DNA of 64,000 nucleotides from Cyanobacterium sp. uoEpiScrs1. GTDB taxonomy: Bacteria; Cyanobacteriota; Cyanobacteriia; Cyanobacteriales; Microcystaceae. Below the pieces are notes generated by a model. That model worked only from the letters and a program-made list of their open reading frames with translations. It did not search any database and was not told where the DNA came from. Every line of letters begins with the position of its first letter. The stretch's first letter is position 1. The stretch lies in the NCBI RefSeq assembly GCF_947331815.1, contig NZ_OX373462.1, positions 1,227,376-1,291,375 of the forward strand, given 5' to 3'. The position numbers and the translations under genes are program-made. Below, one piece after another: positions 30,152 to 60,293 of this stretch.

Positions 30152-30210
30152 GAAAAGTATCTTATAAGTTAATATAAAATTTAGTTATATTAACTTATAA
30201 GATACTTTTC
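30152..30210. repeat. Perfect 26-bp inverted repeat
   Basis: Arms 30152-30177 and 30185-30210 are exact complements around a 7-nt loop (AATTTAG). The outer end is GAAAAGTATC and the inner end AATATAA. It is flanked by no gene within 450 bp. It could be an orphan terminator or the stem of a small RNA. Confidence 0.85.
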
Positions 30211-32329: not shown

Positions 32330-33781
32330 CTAACTTGATTTTTCATTATTTCCATCTGACTGTTTGTCTTCTTCTTGGTCTTGAGCAAACATCTCTAACA
32401 GATCGAAAGAAGATGATTCTGTTTCAAGACTGTCCGTGTCTAATTTAATCTCTTGTAAGTCTTTTCTGGTAAGAGATTCATCTGTTTTAGATTGATCATC
32501 TGTACCCATCGTTAGTATTTTTTCAAATTCTTCTCGGCTGATTTTCTCCGAAAAAACAGGTTCTTTTAAAGTTTCCTGTGTATCTTCTTGTAATTGTTCG
32601 ATCTCAAAAGTTTTTTGGTTTATTTCTGGTGTAATTTCTGTCTCTTCAAGGATTGTTTTTATTGTTCTAGGTTGTTCTGAAAAATCAAAGTTATTCTCCT
32701 TTACTTGTTGAGTCGCAAATTTGTCTTGTTCCTCTGGTATTTCTGTTATTTCATCTTCTACAACTATTGTATTTTTAGAAATTGCTTCAAATGGTTCAGG
32801 TTTATTCAAAATGTCAGACTTTTCCGAGTCTTCTTTTTTATTGACATCCAATTCCTGTCGATTAGATGATTTAGTAATTATTTCTGGCTGTGGTTGAGAG
32901 TTCAGGTTTCTAAACTTAAATAGAGACCTTAAAGAGGACATTAAGGGGAAGTTTTTCTTTTTATGTTTTTTAAGTTCTAATTCAACGGGGGTGGAAGATC
33001 CGGATTTGGTTTCGGTTTCTACAATGGGAGTTTCTGTTGGTTTTTCTATCAGTAGGGATGAAGGAAGTTCTTCATCCGAAATTAACAATTCAGATACTTT
33101 TTCAGAAGAGGTTTCTCTAATTTCTGTTTCTTCTATTAAGGAAATCGTTTCTGTTGACTCTTCTACGGATCCTTCTGTTGACTCTTCTACGGATCCTTCT
33201 GTTGACTCTTCTACGGATCCTTCTGTTGACTCTTCTACGGATCCTTCTGTTGACTCTTCTACGGATCCTTCTGTTGACTCTTCTGCGGATCCTTCTGTTG
33301 ACTCTTGAATAAAGGTCTCTTCTATTCCTAGAAAGGCTTTTTCTTCAGTAGATATCTCTTTAGAGACTGGCTGAGAAAATTCTCTTGTCAAGAGTTCTTT
33401 CCCGTCTGTTCCTGTCTCTATTATTGGGGATGGAGTATTATTCGTAGTAGTAGAGTTTATTTGGAATCCTAAACGGTTTTTCACCCAACGTAGAACAGAA
33501 AAACCAGTTAGAGCAGTTTGGTTTTCGGGGTAAGCAGTTACCCGTCTCAACTGCACTGTTTGCCATCCGAAAGATACTACCAAGATAACTGCCGCTAACT
33601 GTCCCAATAAAATTCCACCAGTGATGCGCTCAGCACATATCCATAAAACTAGGGCATAAAATAGACCAACACCACTCCAAAGAAAATCGTCTTGACGATG
33701 CAATTTAGGTAACAAGAAAGCTGATAAATACAAACTTATGCTAGTGAAGGCGATGACAATTGCTAGGATGTAGGCCAACAT
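32330..33781 (-). CDS. Ycf66-like membrane protein with long acidic, repeat-bearing tail
   Basis: The first about 85 residues (MLAYILAIVIAF to SFGWQTVQLRRV) carry three membrane segments with the Ycf66 pattern. The rest is a hydrophilic, Glu/Ser/Thr-rich, probably disordered tail. Ycf66 is known from plastids and cyanobacteria, but its function is unclear. I chose the ATG at 33781 because the family begins at this membrane segment and AAGGAG lies 11 bases before it; an ATG at 33826 would add 15 polar residues. Within the tail an eight-residue unit EESTEGSV is repeated six times with one variant. The gene is divergent from tamB. Confidence 0.75.
   Translation of the reverse strand: MLAYILAIVIAFTSISLYLSAFLLPKLHRQDDFLWSGVGLFYALVLWICAERITGGILLGQLAAVILVVSFGWQTVQLRRVTAYPENQTALTGFSVLRWVKNRLGFQINSTTTNNTPSPIIETGTDGKELLTREFSQPVSKEISTEEKAFLGIEETFIQESTEGSAEESTEGSVEESTEGSVEESTEGSVEESTEGSVEESTEGSVEESTETISLIEETEIRETSSEKVSELLISDEELPSSLLIEKPTETPIVETETKSGSSTPVELELKKHKKKNFPLMSSLRSLFKFRNLNSQPQPEIITKSSNRQELDVNKKEDSEKSDILNKPEPFEAISKNTIVVEDEITEIPEEQDKFATQQVKENNFDFSEQPRTIKTILEETEITPEINQKTFEIEQLQEDTQETLKEPVFSEKISREEFEKILTMGTDDQSKTDESLTRKDLQEIKLDTDSLETESSSFDLLEMFAQDQEEDKQSDGNNEKSS
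33151..33306. repeat. 24-bp tandem repeat inside the Ycf66-like gene
   Basis: Six full copies of a 24-bp unit (CTGTTGACTC TTCTACGGAT CCTT on the plus strand) and a partial seventh run head to tail. Only one copy differs (TCTGCGGAT). Near-identity at the DNA level points to recent slippage or active homogenisation. On the minus strand it encodes the octapeptide EESTEGSV. Confidence 0.95.
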
Positions 33782-33967
33782 CGAATGGGTTACTCCTTGG
33801 GTATTCTCTTTATTATTGTGAGGCATCTTGCCTCTTATTGTTCATTGGATTCACGATCCAGTTTTTCACTTACCAGTTTTCCACTTAAGTAAGTTAGATT
33901 AGTTAGCAAATTCCTTGACTGCGGTTGTCTCCTCACACTTGATGTTTTTTATAGTTAAGAAACTTCT

Positions 33968-36900
33968 ATGAGTCAATCGCCGCTTCCTCCTAATTCTCCG
34001 TCCAACTATTTGAGTCATCTGCTAAGAATAGCTAGAAAACCTTATAATGTTGCGATCGGACTTACTTCTGTAAGCATTATTATCATTGGCTACACAGGGT
34101 TAAGTCTTTTTCTTCACAAATATCTTCCTCCTTGGCTGGAAAAACAAGTTAGTTATCTGATTAATCGTCCTGTCAATATTGATGAACTTCATGGCTTTTC
34201 TTTGACTCGTCTGTATTTGGGCTCTACTTCTGTGCCACAAACGCCTGATCATCCTAATCAACTCGTTGCTAATCGTACTGTTGTTCATTTTAATCCCATA
34301 GCTATTCTCTTAAAAAGAACTTTAGTGATTAAAATTGTACCTGAAGATGTTGAAATTGAGTTACATCAATATTCTGAAGGAGATTTACTAAAGGGAGAGA
34401 TAACAGATGAGATTATTCCTCTAAAATTAGACCTTATTTTTGACACTAAAAATGTTGCTATTAAGATCTTTCCTAAAAAGACAAATAATTTACTAATGGC
34501 AACTCTTACTGGACAAGTAAGATACAGTGAAATTACAAAATCAAAGTTAGATTACGATATTAATTTGGCATTACTTGGTAGTGAAATTTCTCTCAAAGGA
34601 GAAACAGTTATTGAAACTAAGGAAAGTCAATTAAAATTAGCTATTACTAAATTAGACTTTAGTCAATTAACACCTCTTATTATCAATTCTCCTATTCAAT
34701 TAAACCAAGGAGATATTGAAGCAGATTTAAATATTAATTTTCCTTCTATTGATAAACTATCTAAAACTAAGGCTAAAGGAAACATTTACTTAGAAAATGT
34801 CGAAGGTAAAATTTTATTGTTTGACAAGCCTTTGCAAGCCTTTGCGAATGTTTCTTTTCAAGATAAAAAAATATTAATTAAAAATGCGCAGGCAAGTTTA
34901 GGGAATATTAATGCTAGTTTATCTGGCCAATATAGTTGGAATACTGGATATAATCTAGAAGCTAATATTAGTGGATTAAGCTGGAATAATATTCAGGCAA
35001 TTAATCCAATTAAGTTTCCCGTAGAAATCGATGGAGAATTACAAGCACAATTAAGTTTAATAGGGATGTTTAATTCTCCTTTATTAAGGGGGAAGATAGA
35101 AAACATAGATTTAATAAAAATTGCTCATACTAAAATAAAAAAAATTACTATTGACTTTCAAAGTAATTTAGATTATTTCTTGTTACAAGATTTATCTATT
35201 GTCCCTGAAGCTGGAGGAAGAATTACGGCTAAAGGTATAGTTAAACATCAAATAAGTCAATCTATTACTGGTGGAAAATCAATTAACTGGGAAAATATTC
35301 CTTTTGAATTAGATTTCAATACTAAACTACCAACTAAACGACTAGTAAATGATTACTATAAGTTACCAGTGACAATAAACTTAAATAGTCTAAAAGCACA
35401 AGGAAATATAAAAGGGCGATTAGCTAATCCTAAAGGTTTTATAGAATGGAATACAACTGGAAATTTAAATGCTACCAACACTAAAATTATAAGTCAAGGT
35501 AAGTTTTTGATACAGAATAATGATATTGTTCTTAACAATATAGAGTTAGTGACCCAAAAAGGAAAAATAATTATAAATGGTAGTGGAAATTTAAAAAATA
35601 AGAAATGGCAAGCTCATCTAAATTCTAGTTCTTTGGATTTAACTCCATTTATTTCAGTCATCTGTAATACAAAAAGTAGAAAGTATTTTAATAATATTTT
35701 TATAAAAACTGTGAATATTAGAATAGGAGGTAACCTTGACAAATTTTGGAAAAGATCTATTAATTTATCTTCTAACTTAGTTTTTGCGCTAAATAATGGT
35801 AATTTTGTTATTAATACTCAATTAAAACAAGCTCAATTTACAACATCAGTAACTGGTACAAAACTTATAGGAAGTTTTGTACCAGTTACTGATGTTGTTA
35901 CACCAATTATATTGAAAAAATTTTATTTAAATTTGTCAGGAAACATAGAAAAAATTTTACAGAAATCTTCAATTAATATTGATGCAATTAAAGGTAATTC
36001 TGATTTAGAAATAGAAATAGCTAAGAGCATTTTCAAGACTGAAACAACCTGGCAAAATGGTATTTTTCAAGGGATTGCTGAGCTAGAATCGTTATCTCTC
36101 AATCAATTTATCTCTCAGCTACCAGTTCCTGTTCTATTAACTAATAGTAGAATTAACTTTTTAGGAAGTCTACAGTCTCTACTATTTTTTAGGAAGACCT
36201 CTAATGTTGATGACTTTCAAGTAAATGCCAACACGCAATTTAAAATTGCTGATGGAACCGTTACAGCTATTAGTAAGTTAAACCAAGGAAAAATTACTGT
36301 TAATGCGATAGCTACTCCCTTATCAATCTCTAGTCTTGTACCCAGAGTTTCTATTCCTATTAAAGTAAAAAAGACATATGTTAATTTAACAGGATACTTG
36401 TCAGATTTACTAGCTTTTAACTTTAATACTGTGCAAGGAAATGCTCAGATAAAACTCGGAATTGCAAAAAAAGAAATTGCTACATCAATTAAATTGAGAA
36501 ATAATCAGTGGCAAACTAATATTATTGCTGAGCAACTAGATTTGTCAATCTTAAAAAATCAATTATTGTTCTCAAAAATAACTGAGCCAATGCCAATTAA
36601 TGCAGAAGTTAATCTGTTAGGAACTTTAGAATCGCTATTGTCACCTGACTCTATGATTCCTATCCAAGCTACTGATATAGTAGTAAAAACGGGAGAACAA
36701 AACATAAGAGCTAACGGAAATATAACTCTGACTAATTTTATTGATAATTTTGATATTGCTTCTGTCAGCCTAAATATTGAGACACAAGCTGATTTAAAAT
36801 TTATACCTATCACAGAATTCTTAAATAAAATAACTCTTAATAGACAGCTCTTACCTCAAACCATTAATTTAGCAGGAAAAGGAAAATTTCAAGGTAGTTT

Positions 36901-39900
36901 AACAGGTAAAAATTTGTTGACATCTTCTTTATTAGAGAACAATCTTCAATTAAAAGGCAACTTAGATTTATTAGATTTTACATTTAATGAACTGAATTTT
37001 GAATCTATTTTAAAAGGAGAAATTAATTTAGTAGCAGGAGAAGTAATTTCTCTTGATTTACGAGGAAAAAAAGATGTTATTGCTACTGTTTTTACTTCTT
37101 CTACACAACAAAAATATTTATTTCCCTACATTCCAGAATCCTTTAATATAAGTCAAAAATATAAAAACTCTTCCCCAGTTACTGTTAAAGGAAATCGTCA
37201 AGATGCTCGCCTAGTTGCTAAAGTTCAAAACTTTCCTTTAAAACAATTAAGACTGTCTCCAATTAGTAATTATGGTTTGACTGACTATTTAGGAGGGAAA
37301 ATAAATATCGATTTAGAAATTGATTTGTTAACTTTTGAAAGTAGAGGTAAACTAGACATTATTGATATTAATTTAGGTGAAGTTTTTAAAAATAATTTAC
37401 AAGTTAATTGGATTTATCAAGATGACTATATTACTTTAACAAAAGCAACCATAAAATCAGAAAAAAATGACTACATAATCAATGGGAAAATAGGGTTAAT
37501 AACAGGAGAAATTCAAGGAAGTTTAAAGGTAAATAAAGGTTATATACAAGATTTTTTAACTGTTCTAAAAATTTATGATTTTGATAGTATTTTGCGATTA
37601 TTGCAGTCTAAAAAATATTCTCTATCACATTTTAAGCAGGTGATTCCTCAATCTATTGGGGAAATAAATACTCGGCTTTCAGAACAAGTTAATCAGTTGT
37701 GGGAAAATGACAAAAATATCAAAGAAATTGCTATAGAAAAACAAGCTAGGCACTCACCGCAAGAATTAGATATTAAAGGTGAGTTTAGTGGAAAAATTTT
37801 TCTATCTGGAACTTTTAAAGTTCCAAAAATAACTTTTCAATTTGAGGGAAAAAATTGGGAATGGATCTCTCAAGCACCGACCCCCTCTATTGTTAATCCC
37901 CTAGGGTTTGTCCTTGAAAGTTCTCCAGTAATTTATTTTAAAAAGTTAGCAATTACAGGAAAATTAGAAAATGGAACTATTAACATAAATCCTATTATTG
38001 AGCTTAACAAAAGTTTGATTCAAGCTAATCTTAGTTTAACGTATGATAATAATCAGTTTTATTTACAACCTTCAACTTTTAGCTTTAACAATCTTGCTTT
38101 AGATACGGTACGTAGTTTAATAGTTATTCCCGAGGATATTAATGGTAATATTGATTTGGTAGGAGATCTCACTGGAAGTTTAAGAAAACCAAAAATAAAT
38201 GGAATATTCTCTTTTAAACAAGGGGCTATTAATGCTCGATTACTTAGACAAAATTTTCAAGGTAATTTTACATATAGTAATGCACAATTAGAACTAAAAA
38301 TAGACGAGCCTGATTTTATTCAAGCTTATGCCCGCTTTTCTTTGCCTGTTAAAACGGATAATAATAATCGATTTAAAATTAACATTCAACTAGAAACTAG
38401 GGCTTTTTCTTTACTAGAAATTTTAACTAAAGAACAAGTCAGTTGGATTAAAGGAGAAGGAAAAATATACATTGATCTAAGTGGTAAAATTAATATGAGT
38501 GATGAATTAAAAGTGATTTTTGATTCTAATAGTATGCTAATTTTAGATCTGAAATCAATGATTTTTAAGAGCGATTTATTGCCAAATATTTTAACCTTAA
38601 ATGGGAAAGTAGCCCTACAAAATGGCAAAATTAAAGTAAATAAGCTAATAGGTAAGTTAGGAGAGATAACTATTAATGCTATAGGAATACTACCCTTGTT
38701 TTCTTCATCATTTATAGATGTTGATAGTGCCATTCCTCTAAGTATTAATTTGACGCAAAACCAAGTAAATAATGATTTCTTATATCAAGGAATTGCTGAT
38801 GCTTTAATTCTCATCAAGGGATCAGTTTTTAGCCCTATAATTGAAGGAGAAATACAGTTAAATCAGGGAAAGATTGTAGTTCCTAATTTTATTTATAGTT
38901 TGTATAAAAAAACAAAATCACCAATTCTAGAAAAGTGGATAAAAAGAATGATTTCCCCAGAAGAAGTAATTCTTCTTCCAAAAATTAACGAATTTATAGT
39001 TTCAATTAAAGAAGTTGAAATTGAGCAAAAAAATATTAATCCCAAATTTAGTTTTAACGTTAGTGGTAATCTAAGTTTAAGTGGTCAGTTAACTAGTCTT
39101 TCTTTGCCAGGGTTACTTGCTCTAAAACCGTCTGGAAAAGTTTATATCAATAGAGGAAAAGTCAATATTCCTGTAACTCGCGTTTTTATTCCTCGTCAAT
39201 CTAAAAACACTATTACTTTTTTACCAGAAAAAGGATTATTAAATCCCTATATAGATCTAGAATTTAAACTTTATATATTGAATATTGCTTTAAGGACAAT
39301 TAATGCTAACGAAGTCGCCGATGATATTGTTCAAAGTGGTCGCTCTCAATCAGTAGAAATTACTATAGGAATTAAAGGAGATGCTGACCAGTTACTTCCT
39401 AATCTTGGTAATAAGTTAGAAGAAGTTTGTAAATTAAGACCAGATAATTATCGCCCTATTCCCAAAACTTCAGCAATTAATCCTAATAAATTGAGGCAGT
39501 TAGTTAACTGTATTCAGATCAATAATTTAGGTGCCAACTCAATTCGGGACTTACTACAATCTCCTATTGTTTCTTTTTCTAGTAGTCCTCGTTTAAGCAG
39601 TAGTGAGTTACTAACGCTTTTTGGGACACAACTTCCTAATTTAATTGAGCAATTACAACAACAAAATTCAGCCCAATTAGTAGAAGCAGGACTACCCCAA
39701 GTTGCAATTGTACTGTTTCCCTTTTTACAAGATTGGATTTTTGAGCTAAATGAAACAACTAATCACCTAGGAAAAGAGTGGGGAATGGGAAATTTACGCT
39801 TGTATCCTGTCTTAGAAAAAGTATATGAACTTGAAGATGATTCACTAATTCGGTTTTCCTATGATTACTCATTTAATGAAGTAATTATCCGTTATGAGAA

Positions 39901-39910
39901 CAAATTTTAA
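33968..39910 (+). CDS. tamB: TamB-like translocation and assembly module protein (DUF490)
   Basis: TamB-type proteins bridge the inner and outer membranes and move phospholipid or assist outer-membrane protein insertion; the plastid relative is TIC236. This 1980-residue protein has one N-terminal membrane segment (about 28-48) and then a very long series of beta-rich units, seen as recurring patterns such as VNLTGYLSDLL, INFLGSLQSLL and VNLLGTLESLL. The C-terminal DUF490 domain ends LIRFSYDYSFNEVIIRYENKF, with the alternating beta pattern expected. It is one intact frame. A perfect 27-bp inverted repeat lies within it (listed separately). It is divergent from the Ycf66-like gene. Confidence 0.92.
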   Translation: MSQSPLPPNSPSNYLSHLLRIARKPYNVAIGLTSVSIIIIGYTGLSLFLHKYLPPWLEKQVSYLINRPVNIDELHGFSLTRLYLGSTSVPQTPDHPNQLVANRTVVHFNPIAILLKRTLVIKIVPEDVEIELHQYSEGDLLKGEITDEIIPLKLDLIFDTKNVAIKIFPKKTNNLLMATLTGQVRYSEITKSKLDYDINLALLGSEISLKGETVIETKESQLKLAITKLDFSQLTPLIINSPIQLNQGDIEADLNINFPSIDKLSKTKAKGNIYLENVEGKILLFDKPLQAFANVSFQDKKILIKNAQASLGNINASLSGQYSWNTGYNLEANISGLSWNNIQAINPIKFPVEIDGELQAQLSLIGMFNSPLLRGKIENIDLIKIAHTKIKKITIDFQSNLDYFLLQDLSIVPEAGGRITAKGIVKHQISQSITGGKSINWENIPFELDFNTKLPTKRLVNDYYKLPVTINLNSLKAQGNIKGRLANPKGFIEWNTTGNLNATNTKIISQGKFLIQNNDIVLNNIELVTQKGKIIINGSGNLKNKKWQAHLNSSSLDLTPFISVICNTKSRKYFNNIFIKTVNIRIGGNLDKFWKRSINLSSNLVFALNNGNFVINTQLKQAQFTTSVTGTKLIGSFVPVTDVVTPIILKKFYLNLSGNIEKILQKSSINIDAIKGNSDLEIEIAKSIFKTETTWQNGIFQGIAELESLSLNQFISQLPVPVLLTNSRINFLGSLQSLLFFRKTSNVDDFQVNANTQFKIADGTVTAISKLNQGKITVNAIATPLSISSLVPRVSIPIKVKKTYVNLTGYLSDLLAFNFNTVQGNAQIKLGIAKKEIATSIKLRNNQWQTNIIAEQLDLSILKNQLLFSKITEPMPINAEVNLLGTLESLLSPDSMIPIQATDIVVKTGEQNIRANGNITLTNFIDNFDIASVSLNIETQADLKFIPITEFLNKITLNRQLLPQTINLAGKGKFQGSLTGKNLLTSSLLENNLQLKGNLDLLDFTFNELNFESILKGEINLVAGEVISLDLRGKKDVIATVFTSSTQQKYLFPYIPESFNISQKYKNSSPVTVKGNRQDARLVAKVQNFPLKQLRLSPISNYGLTDYLGGKINIDLEIDLLTFESRGKLDIIDINLGEVFKNNLQVNWIYQDDYITLTKATIKSEKNDYIINGKIGLITGEIQGSLKVNKGYIQDFLTVLKIYDFDSILRLLQSKKYSLSHFKQVIPQSIGEINTRLSEQVNQLWENDKNIKEIAIEKQARHSPQELDIKGEFSGKIFLSGTFKVPKITFQFEGKNWEWISQAPTPSIVNPLGFVLESSPVIYFKKLAITGKLENGTININPIIELNKSLIQANLSLTYDNNQFYLQPSTFSFNNLALDTVRSLIVIPEDINGNIDLVGDLTGSLRKPKINGIFSFKQGAINARLLRQNFQGNFTYSNAQLELKIDEPDFIQAYARFSLPVKTDNNNRFKINIQLETRAFSLLEILTKEQVSWIKGEGKIYIDLSGKINMSDELKVIFDSNSMLILDLKSMIFKSDLLPNILTLNGKVALQNGKIKVNKLIGKLGEITINAIGILPLFSSSFIDVDSAIPLSINLTQNQVNNDFLYQGIADALILIKGSVFSPIIEGEIQLNQGKIVVPNFIYSLYKKTKSPILEKWIKRMISPEEVILLPKINEFIVSIKEVEIEQKNINPKFSFNVSGNLSLSGQLTSLSLPGLLALKPSGKVYINRGKVNIPVTRVFIPRQSKNTITFLPEKGLLNPYIDLEFKLYILNIALRTINANEVADDIVQSGRSQSVEITIGIKGDADQLLPNLGNKLEEVCKLRPDNYRPIPKTSAINPNKLRQLVNCIQINNLGANSIRDLLQSPIVSFSSSPRLSSSELLTLFGTQLPNLIEQLQQQNSAQLVEAGLPQVAIVLFPFLQDWIFELNETTNHLGKEWGMGNLRLYPVLEKVYELEDDSLIRFSYDYSFNEVIIRYENKF
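35840..35898. repeat. Perfect 27-bp inverted repeat within tamB
   Basis: Arms 35840-35866 and 35872-35898 are exact complements around the loop ATAGG. They encode about residues 625-644 of TamB and keep the frame open. No T-run follows, so a terminator is unlikely. The left arm begins ACAACATCAGTAACTGGTAC. Confidence 0.9.
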
Positions 39911-40358
39911 TAAAATATTTAAACTAAATTATATTTATAATCAAATATTGCTTTTTCAAAATCATAAATCAGGGATTTAAAGTAGGCAATAGACAACATT
40001 AATAATCCATTTGTTATTAACTGAAAATCTGTCCAATTAAGTCATACAAATATAGTTATTTTCTTGAAAAAGCAAGGTTGCTTAGTTGTTTAAATCTAAA
40101 TAAAATTCTTCAATCAAACAAATACAAGTAATTTATCAAATAAAGAATTGACAAATATATAAATACTTGTAATCATAATATATTTAATGTAATTTTTTTT
40201 GATTAGATTTACTGTTAACTTATTAAATAAAATACAGTTTATAAAGTATAAGTTAGCAAATCAAATTAACTAACCTTTTATCTCCCTAAATTTTATTTAA
40301 ACTTACATTTTATTTATTATTTTTGGTACTGGTATGATGTCTCAGTTTAATAAACATT
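39911..40358. other. Gap between convergent tamB and dnaK
   Basis: About 450 bp of AT-rich DNA with no gene. No strong tamB terminator was found; only the dnaK hairpin at its right edge stands out. Confidence 0.45.
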
Positions 40359-40390
40359 AGAAACCCCGACTCGTAAGAGTCGGGGTTTCT
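40359..40390 (-). terminator. Rho-independent-type terminator of dnaK
   Basis: AGAAACCCCGACTC and GAGTCGGGGTTTCT are perfect 14-bp arms around a GTAA loop. This GC-rich stem stands out in AT-rich DNA and begins 34 bp past the dnaK stop. It may also stop transcription arriving from tamB. Confidence 0.8.
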
Positions 40391-40423
40391 AAAACTAAAA
40401 CTAAGTGAGAAGTTTGAAGTGAG

Positions 40424-55437: not shown

Positions 55438-55485
55438 ATAACTTTGAACTTAATTTAATTATAATTAAATTAAGTTCAAAGTTAT
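55438..55485. repeat. Perfect 48-nt palindrome
   Basis: The 24-nt arm 55438-55461 (begins ATAACTTTGAAC) is followed directly by its exact complement 55462-55485. It lies 64 bp upstream of the DUF2237 start, so it is not that gene's terminator. Such a palindrome can extrude as a cruciform or end a transcript from another unit. Confidence 0.9.
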
Positions 55486-56360: not shown

Positions 56361-56405
56361 AGTATTTCTATTGTAGAATCAGGATGATTCTACAATAGAA
56401 ATACT
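56361..56405. repeat. Perfect 20-bp inverted repeat
   Basis: AGTATTTCTATTGTAGAATC (56361-56380) and its exact complement (56386-56405) surround the loop AGGAT. No T-run follows on the plus strand (TAATT). No gene is near on either side. Confidence 0.9.
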
Positions 56406-60244: not shown

Positions 60245-60293
60245 AAAACTAGGTTGGTTATTATTTATTACAAGTAATAACCAACCTAGTTTT
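60245..60293. terminator. Long hairpin, probable bidirectional terminator for lpxD and aroQ
   Basis: AAAACTAGGTTGGTTATTA (60245-60263) and its exact complement (60275-60293) form a 19-bp stem with an 11-nt loop, ending in TTTT on the plus strand and in TTTT on the minus strand. It is 65 bp past the lpxD stop. A shorter partial copy of one arm (AAAACTAGGTT) recurs at about 60311. Confidence 0.7.

Follow-up and report, generated by a model that had tools for sequence, protein, structure and literature searches.

A probable template-switch origin for a perfect inverted repeat in a tamB-like gene of a likely diatom endosymbiont

A perfect 27-bp inverted repeat within a tamB-like gene of a cyanobacterium, probably the endosymbiont of the diatom Epithemia pelagica (UHM3201; genome G000), is very likely explained by a single short-range template-switch mutation, as judged by comparison with the orthologous genes of other species. 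It would be an unusually clean natural example of such a switch in a bacterium, with about 11 codons rewritten, apparently in one step, and the reading frame kept. The mechanism as such is already established (PMC8604942, PMC7202029, PMC8794818), and the interesting part is the wider genomic pattern: in samples of four related genomes, perfect hairpins, for the most part lineage-specific, and inverted spacers occur in DNA of little apparent function. The genomic context of the tamB case therefore merits proper study.

A 27-bp inverted repeat in a tamB-like gene

The window, i.e. the whole 64-kb stretch of DNA that was analysed, spans positions 1227376-1291375 of a single 2,483,960-base contig. 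An original prediction, made from the letters of this stretch, had described two exactly complementary 27-nt arms around a 5-nt loop at 35840-35898, lying within one open frame at residues about 625-644. Direct examination bears out both statements: the arms are 100% complementary, and the repeat occupies codons 625-644 of an intact reading frame (Table 1). Chance had been called a very improbable source of arms of this length, and indeed perfect arms reached at most 15 bp in 60 windows of 64 kb simulated with Markov models (orders 1-3, 20 windows per order, spacer at most 30 nt).

Table 1. The inverted repeat, its host gene and the related protein repeat (window coordinates)
Feature	Position	Strand	Description and basis
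tamB-like ORF	33968..39910	+	1980 aa, intact; host of the proposed event; ORF list, Pfam on orthologues, dN/dS
Left arm, codons 625-633	35840..35866	+	Probably ancestral, putative copy template; T-S-x-T-G common to 6 of 7 usable relatives
Spacer ATAGG	35867..35871	+	Inverted relative to the inferred ancestor; CCTTT or CCTAT in relatives
Right arm	35872..35898	+	Probably new, copied from the left arm as its reverse complement; net gain of 3 nt
Related internal protein repeat	36221..36442	+	PLS-type motif in the corresponding position; segment-against-segment BLASTP

The host ORF is named after its orthologues, since two of these (L005 and L007) pass the curated cut-off of the Pfam TamB model (PF04357); the window protein itself gave no TamB hit against Pfam, the only match being DUF5907 at E 0.096. 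Its gene-wide dN/dS against four relatives is 0.26-0.32, which indicates that the gene stays under purifying selection. In G005 the tamB matches (L022 / L008), from an open frame of 1912 aa, leave out residues 762-827 of the window protein.

A search of the genome with the repeat sequence returned two hits only, the site itself on each strand. This bears on the idea that a mobile or selfish palindrome, of the Rickettsia palindromic element or MITE type, was inserted here. Although protein-coding palindromes are known in Rickettsia (PMC6649704), the tamB repeat is single-copy and brought a net gain of merely 3 nt. Moreover, the 67 repeats of at least 14 bp in the 400-kb sample of this genome yielded four cross-hits at E <=1e-3, one of them with more than two places, and no related multi-copy insertions or repeat family were found in that sample. 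We regard such an insertion as exceedingly improbable.

Fold-back chimeras exist as a class, and they raise the question of an assembly or library artefact. We consider this extremely unlikely, as the reading frame is intact and inverted spacers occur in other genomes too. The probable source assembly is, in addition, described as a circular contig from PacBio HiFi reads (PMC11167328).

Folding the mRNA, a check proposed along with the original prediction, gave a very stable structure (181-nt region around the repeat, MFE -50.9 kcal/mol, z = -7.0). This stability, together with the purifying selection on the gene, would suit the alternative of a selected RNA or DNA hairpin, acting in ribosome pausing or mRNA protection, as that prediction had suggested, or in regulation, and maintained by compensating changes. 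The relatives do not support it: the stem is absent from all five compared, in which 9-11 of the 27 arm columns pair, not above background in the four so tested (mean 7.4-7.8), and a conserved stem with compensating changes was looked for in these five and not found. The tract also differs at the amino-acid level, with pN of 0.54-0.59 as against a gene-wide 0.14-0.20 in the same three relatives. A selected hairpin is thus very unlikely; no selected function was detected for the repeat, which has the look of a scar that the gene tolerates, left by a process with traces elsewhere in these genomes too.

Direction and proposed mechanism of the change

Codon alignment covered seven usable of eight relatives (L009, from G008, was left out as out of frame), all of them other species at 50-75% protein identity, from which we infer the ancestral state. 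The T-S-x-T-G of the left arm is missing only from the distant L011, and the spacer codon is proline (CCN) in all seven, with no proline there in the window. The residues of the relatives, such as LPLSLL-SANIFIP, stand in the window as LIGSFVPVTDVVTP, one codon longer. Against five relatives the right arm has mismatches at 11-17 of its 27 positions, a count that ranks among the highest 0.7-4.2% of windows in the gene; the left arm has 7-9 of 27, which is unremarkable for the gene, with differences in its inner part too. Positions differing from all four close relatives number 10 of 27 in the right arm and 4 in the left, the mean being 3.2, and the maximum of this count over the scanned 2.25 kb of the gene (13) falls across the spacer and both inner arms. 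The conserved left arm, the lost spacer proline and the novel right arm together indicate, on this comparison, that the left arm is ancestral and that the right arm and spacer were overwritten, the changes being clustered in the replaced arm.

The related internal repeat of the same protein, to which the original prediction had drawn attention, is real (25/79 identical, E = 6e-9 in that single BLASTP comparison). It had been read as a sign of an altered left arm; however, its segment ATPLSISSLVP carries the PLS-type motif that the relatives show at the spacer and right arm, and it therefore indicates that the right arm is the one that changed.

The orientation of the spacer bears on the same question. 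Compared with five relatives, it matches at 0 of 5 positions as it stands and at 4-5 of 5 as its reverse complement, in every one of them; this inversion is the mark of the inter-strand form of template switching. Because the spacer is inverted, the whole 32-nt tract at 35867-35898 reads as the ancestral left arm and spacer in reverse complement, which a single inter-strand switch would be expected to leave behind. The left arm and spacer of the relatives, reverse-complemented, match this tract at 22-24 of 32 positions, the top score among the 32-mers searched in the gene of that relative (for G005 the first 2.28 kb only), and the linear counterpart in the relatives matches it at 12-17 of 29 (3-nt gap allowed). 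Within the window the reverse-complement copy of the adjoining sequence is complete (27/27). The net change is the replacement of 29 nt by 32 nt, adding one codon in frame, and in comparison with these other species the changes are confined to the branch of the window. The alignment of tamB from relatives, which had been suggested as a check, supports a template switch; the left arm is kept by six of the seven. Of the original proposal the mechanism stands, strongly supported, and the direction does not: it had the left arm overwritten by a copy of the right, and the codon alignment and the spacer and tract matches show the reverse.

We posit that, during replication, the growing strand would have copied through the left arm to about 35866 and then paired with complementary letters close by on the opposite strand, immediately to the right of the spacer, with AAACTT pairing with an ancestral AAGTTT as the possible primer. 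Synthesis would then have run back through the spacer and left arm, over about 32 nt, before the strand returned to its proper template, leaving the left arm, an inverted spacer and a reverse-complement copy of the left arm, with 29 nt turned into 32 nt. The inter-strand route is suggested by the inverted spacer; both sides of the proposed 6-nt primer occur together in none of the five relatives, and the low pairing of the arms in the relatives, at background level in the four so tested, likewise speaks against an older repeat as primer. The ancestral arm, the inverted spacer, the gain of 3 nt and the absence of the stem from five relatives come from the comparison with those relatives. A single event, the inter-strand route and the primer are what we infer beyond it, and since the ancestor is reconstructed from species 50-75% identical and not from a sister strain, several steps are possible.

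A non-replicative route, either a small inversion or the repair of a break by fold-back synthesis in place of a polymerase switch at the fork, could give the same end product, and fold-back priming at breaks has been described (PMC10622511). A pure inversion, however, would preserve the letters of both old arms, whereas here 29 nt of the inferred ancestor were lost and 27 nt doubled. We consider a non-replicative origin unlikely, with the qualification that break-primed synthesis with a return to the template is hard to distinguish from a template switch.

The template switch proposed for tamB finds parallels in several known systems. In yeast, spacer inversion has been explained by an intermolecular switch while the first arm is being replicated, and at REG2 arm conversion and spacer inversion occurred together inside a protein gene, as in tamB (PMC8604942). 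There, a 5-bp arm with a 5-bp spacer became a 16-bp perfect arm; the tamB case differs in being bacterial, in its longer arm (27 bp), in its net gain of one codon and in that its starting repeat is putative (PMC8604942). It likewise resembles the quasipalindrome-associated template-switch mutations of E. coli, in which an imperfect inverted repeat is made perfect, although the E. coli reporters score intramolecular switches in an 18-bp quasi-palindrome and the tamB spacer points to an inter-strand one (PMC7202029). In rRNA genes, one template-switch event can make a perfect stem, creating or maintaining RNA hairpins, and loop inversions have been reported, bacteria included; those cases lie in structured RNA genes, whereas tamB is a protein gene and most of the other cases described here are non-genic (PMC8794818). 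Finally, the mitochondria of Nematomorpha have perfect inverted repeats inside protein genes, but these reach 284 bp and both of their arms encode conserved residues, as only the left arm does in tamB (PMC6649704).

Inverted repeats in the symbiont genomes

The tamB repeat is one of 12 perfect inverted repeats in the window with arms of at least 12 bp and spacers of at most 30 nt, where about 0.5 would be expected. For the wider comparison we drew 400 kb per genome, corresponding to 13-16% of each symbiont genome. The four symbionts, so termed by match or inference, are G000, G001 (3,072,807 bases), G003 (2,794,318) and G005 (3,020,309). G003 was taken as the spheroid body of Epithemia turgida, G005 as that of Rhopalodia gibberula and G006 (4,679,413 bases) as the free-living Cyanothece PCC 8801 (PMC5638926). 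G001 was grouped with the symbionts on account of its collinearity with G000 (281,583 of 400,000 bases covered by blastn), a size similar to that of G003 and G005, and a scarcity of long ORFs equal to theirs.

Perfect repeats of at least 14 bp number 67 in G000, 64 in G001, 63 in G003 and 45 in G005 (239 in all), as opposed to 15 in the free-living G006, and Markov-3 simulations, three per 400-kb sample over the five samples, yielded 0 or 1. A plain ORF rule classes 229 of the 239 symbiont repeats as non-genic, the genic ones numbering 4, 1, 4 and 1 in G000, G001, G003 and G005. At the same size, the symbionts have 0-1 mirror repeats and 5-19 direct repeats, against 6 and 19 in G006, so that their excess over G006 lies in inverted repeats. 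A 200-kb sample of G002 (G002:C81, L123-L132) had no perfect inverted repeat of at least 12 bp, terminator-like ones included.

We rejected a terminator origin for the bulk of the symbiont repeats, although 5, 3, 6 and 5 of them (G000, G001, G003 and G005, respectively) lie within 60 nt of a 3' end and may be terminators. Where a 3' end exists, it lies at a median distance of 307 nt in G000 and of 504-778 nt in the other symbionts, and T-rich tails are found in 10/61, 11/62, 6/58 and 8/44 repeats in the same order. Across tandem, convergent and divergent gaps, the non-genic repeats are distributed as 25/19/17 of 61 in G000 (base shares 0.41/0.28/0.31), 20/16/26 of 62 in G001 (0.42/0.29/0.29), 26/14/18 of 58 in G003 (0.39/0.31/0.30) and 17/16/11 of 44 in G005 (0.41/0.32/0.27). 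With 26 of 62 against a share of 0.29 in G001, divergent gaps are, if anything, over-represented; in such gaps the four symbionts together have 72 repeats per 187 kb, and G006 has 1 per 20 kb. A 3' neighbour is present for 14 of the 15 repeats of G006, the median distance of 50 nt being that expected of terminators, and 3 of 15 have a T-rich tail.

A further sample (L133-L152) came from the reduced genome G020 (1,491,611 bases), of another genus of the same family, which we take to be possibly UCYN-A. Its 400 kb hold 41 repeats of at least 14 bp, with arms of up to 46 bp, but of the 32 that have a 3' neighbour, 22 are no more than 60 nt from the gene end, in contrast to the diatom symbionts, and a terminator origin is not rejected there. 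Since most of its repeats are near gene ends, G020 represents a different case or a functional subset.

Spacer orientation, possible causes and individual repeats

A homologous stretch spanning the repeat was present in another sample for 137 of the 239 repeats. From these, 110 sites with flank identity of at least 0.7 entered a test of the arms, and 87 with a testable spacer of at least 4 nt a test of the spacer. Only 7 of the 110 well-flanked sites are nearly fully paired in the homologue, so that most of the tested repeats are lineage-specific. Compared with another species, 16 of the 87 spacers are inverted and 38 direct, the rest being ambiguous, as against 5 inverted of 1445 random segments of the same length (Fisher p = 5e-17). 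Repeats with short arms (8-9 bp) form a stricter control than random segments, and the inverted fraction by rising arm length runs 34/804 (8-9 bp), 11/138, 4/35, 6/46 and 10/40 (at least 18 bp). The short-arm baseline is 33/522 outside ORFs and 1/282 inside; because it is higher outside, the rise there over this control is about fourfold, to 9/36. Inside ORFs the longer classes are small (2/47, 1/7, 0/6 and 1/4), the last inverted spacer being that of tamB.

The asymmetry of the arms is modest in bulk and speaks partly against the replacement of one arm. Over the 110 sites the mean arm difference is 0.153 versus 0.109 in controls (p = 3e-5), but the better-conserved arm stands at 0.807 versus 0.874, and strong asymmetry is seen at 12 sites. 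As the better arm lies below the controls and strong asymmetry is rare, it is the spacer test that carries the wider claim. Pairing at homologous sites is 0.594 versus 0.277 in controls; we rejected this as proof, taken by itself, of older quasi-palindromes, since shared letters alone would give about 0.53-0.55.

These observations allow a broader reading, which we advance tentatively: the genomes of N2-fixing diatom endosymbionts may be a natural record of bacterial template switching, in which perfect hairpins and spacer flips form often and unselected in DNA that is decaying, now and then rewriting a stretch of protein in a single step, as proposed for tamB, at a rate that may exceed that of free-living relatives. 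Relaxed selection on much non-functional DNA may suffice for the pattern; a higher template-switch rate in the symbionts is possible. We rejected the loss of a hairpin-processing or repair enzyme as the cause, no tested loss singling out the symbionts: sbcC was found in 9/9 genomes and recJ, mutS, sbcD and recG in 7/7 each, the four symbionts included. xseA (ExoVII) had no match in eight of nine genomes, namely the four symbionts, G006, G008, G011 and G012. Being unmatched in the free-living G006 too, it does not separate the symbionts from free-living relatives; its sole match is in G002, on another contig than the repeat-free sample.

Among 1,565 bacterial genomes, those rich in inverted repeats were reported to be more often endosymbionts (PMC10434271). 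The main text of a later survey of 118,019 genomes does not contain the terms 'template switch', 'symbiont' or 'cyanobacteri' (PMC13155455, term search), and among the papers listed by a literature search that took in few subscription journals, and hence is weak evidence of absence, none was on template switching in these symbionts. If the pattern holds, the rate and the switch-point rules would be measurable in a natural bacterial lineage. It also cautions against assuming a regulatory role for every perfect hairpin in such genomes.

Besides tamB, two coding repeats have one arm closer to the relatives than the other. At G000 1294121 the relatives agree with the left arm at 10-11 of 12 positions and with the right at 4-6; at G001 650802 they agree with the right arm at 15-16 of 18 positions and with the left at 11. 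The four symbionts have 23 further coding repeats of at least 12 bp, many of them ambiguous. Apparently the same coding hairpin is found in L061 near 6000 (G001 1006000) and L120 near 18554 (G005 998554), its spacer reading GTTG in one species and CAAC in the other, so that within an ORF the spacer is cleanly flipped.

Several other repeats of the window deserve mention. A perfect 48-bp palindrome with no spacer lies at 55438-55485, outside large ORFs, and further perfect repeats are found at 30152-30210 (26-bp arms), 56361-56405 (21 bp) and 60245-60293 (19 bp). Downstream of tamB, at 40357-40392, there is a 16-bp hairpin with a 4-nt spacer and half G+C, of which 12-14 of 16 pairs are kept in three relatives and whose spacer is inverted relative to one of these. 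On the other side of the gene, a minus-strand ORF at 32330-33826 (498 aa) contains ESTEGSVE-type tandem repeats at about 33150-33310.
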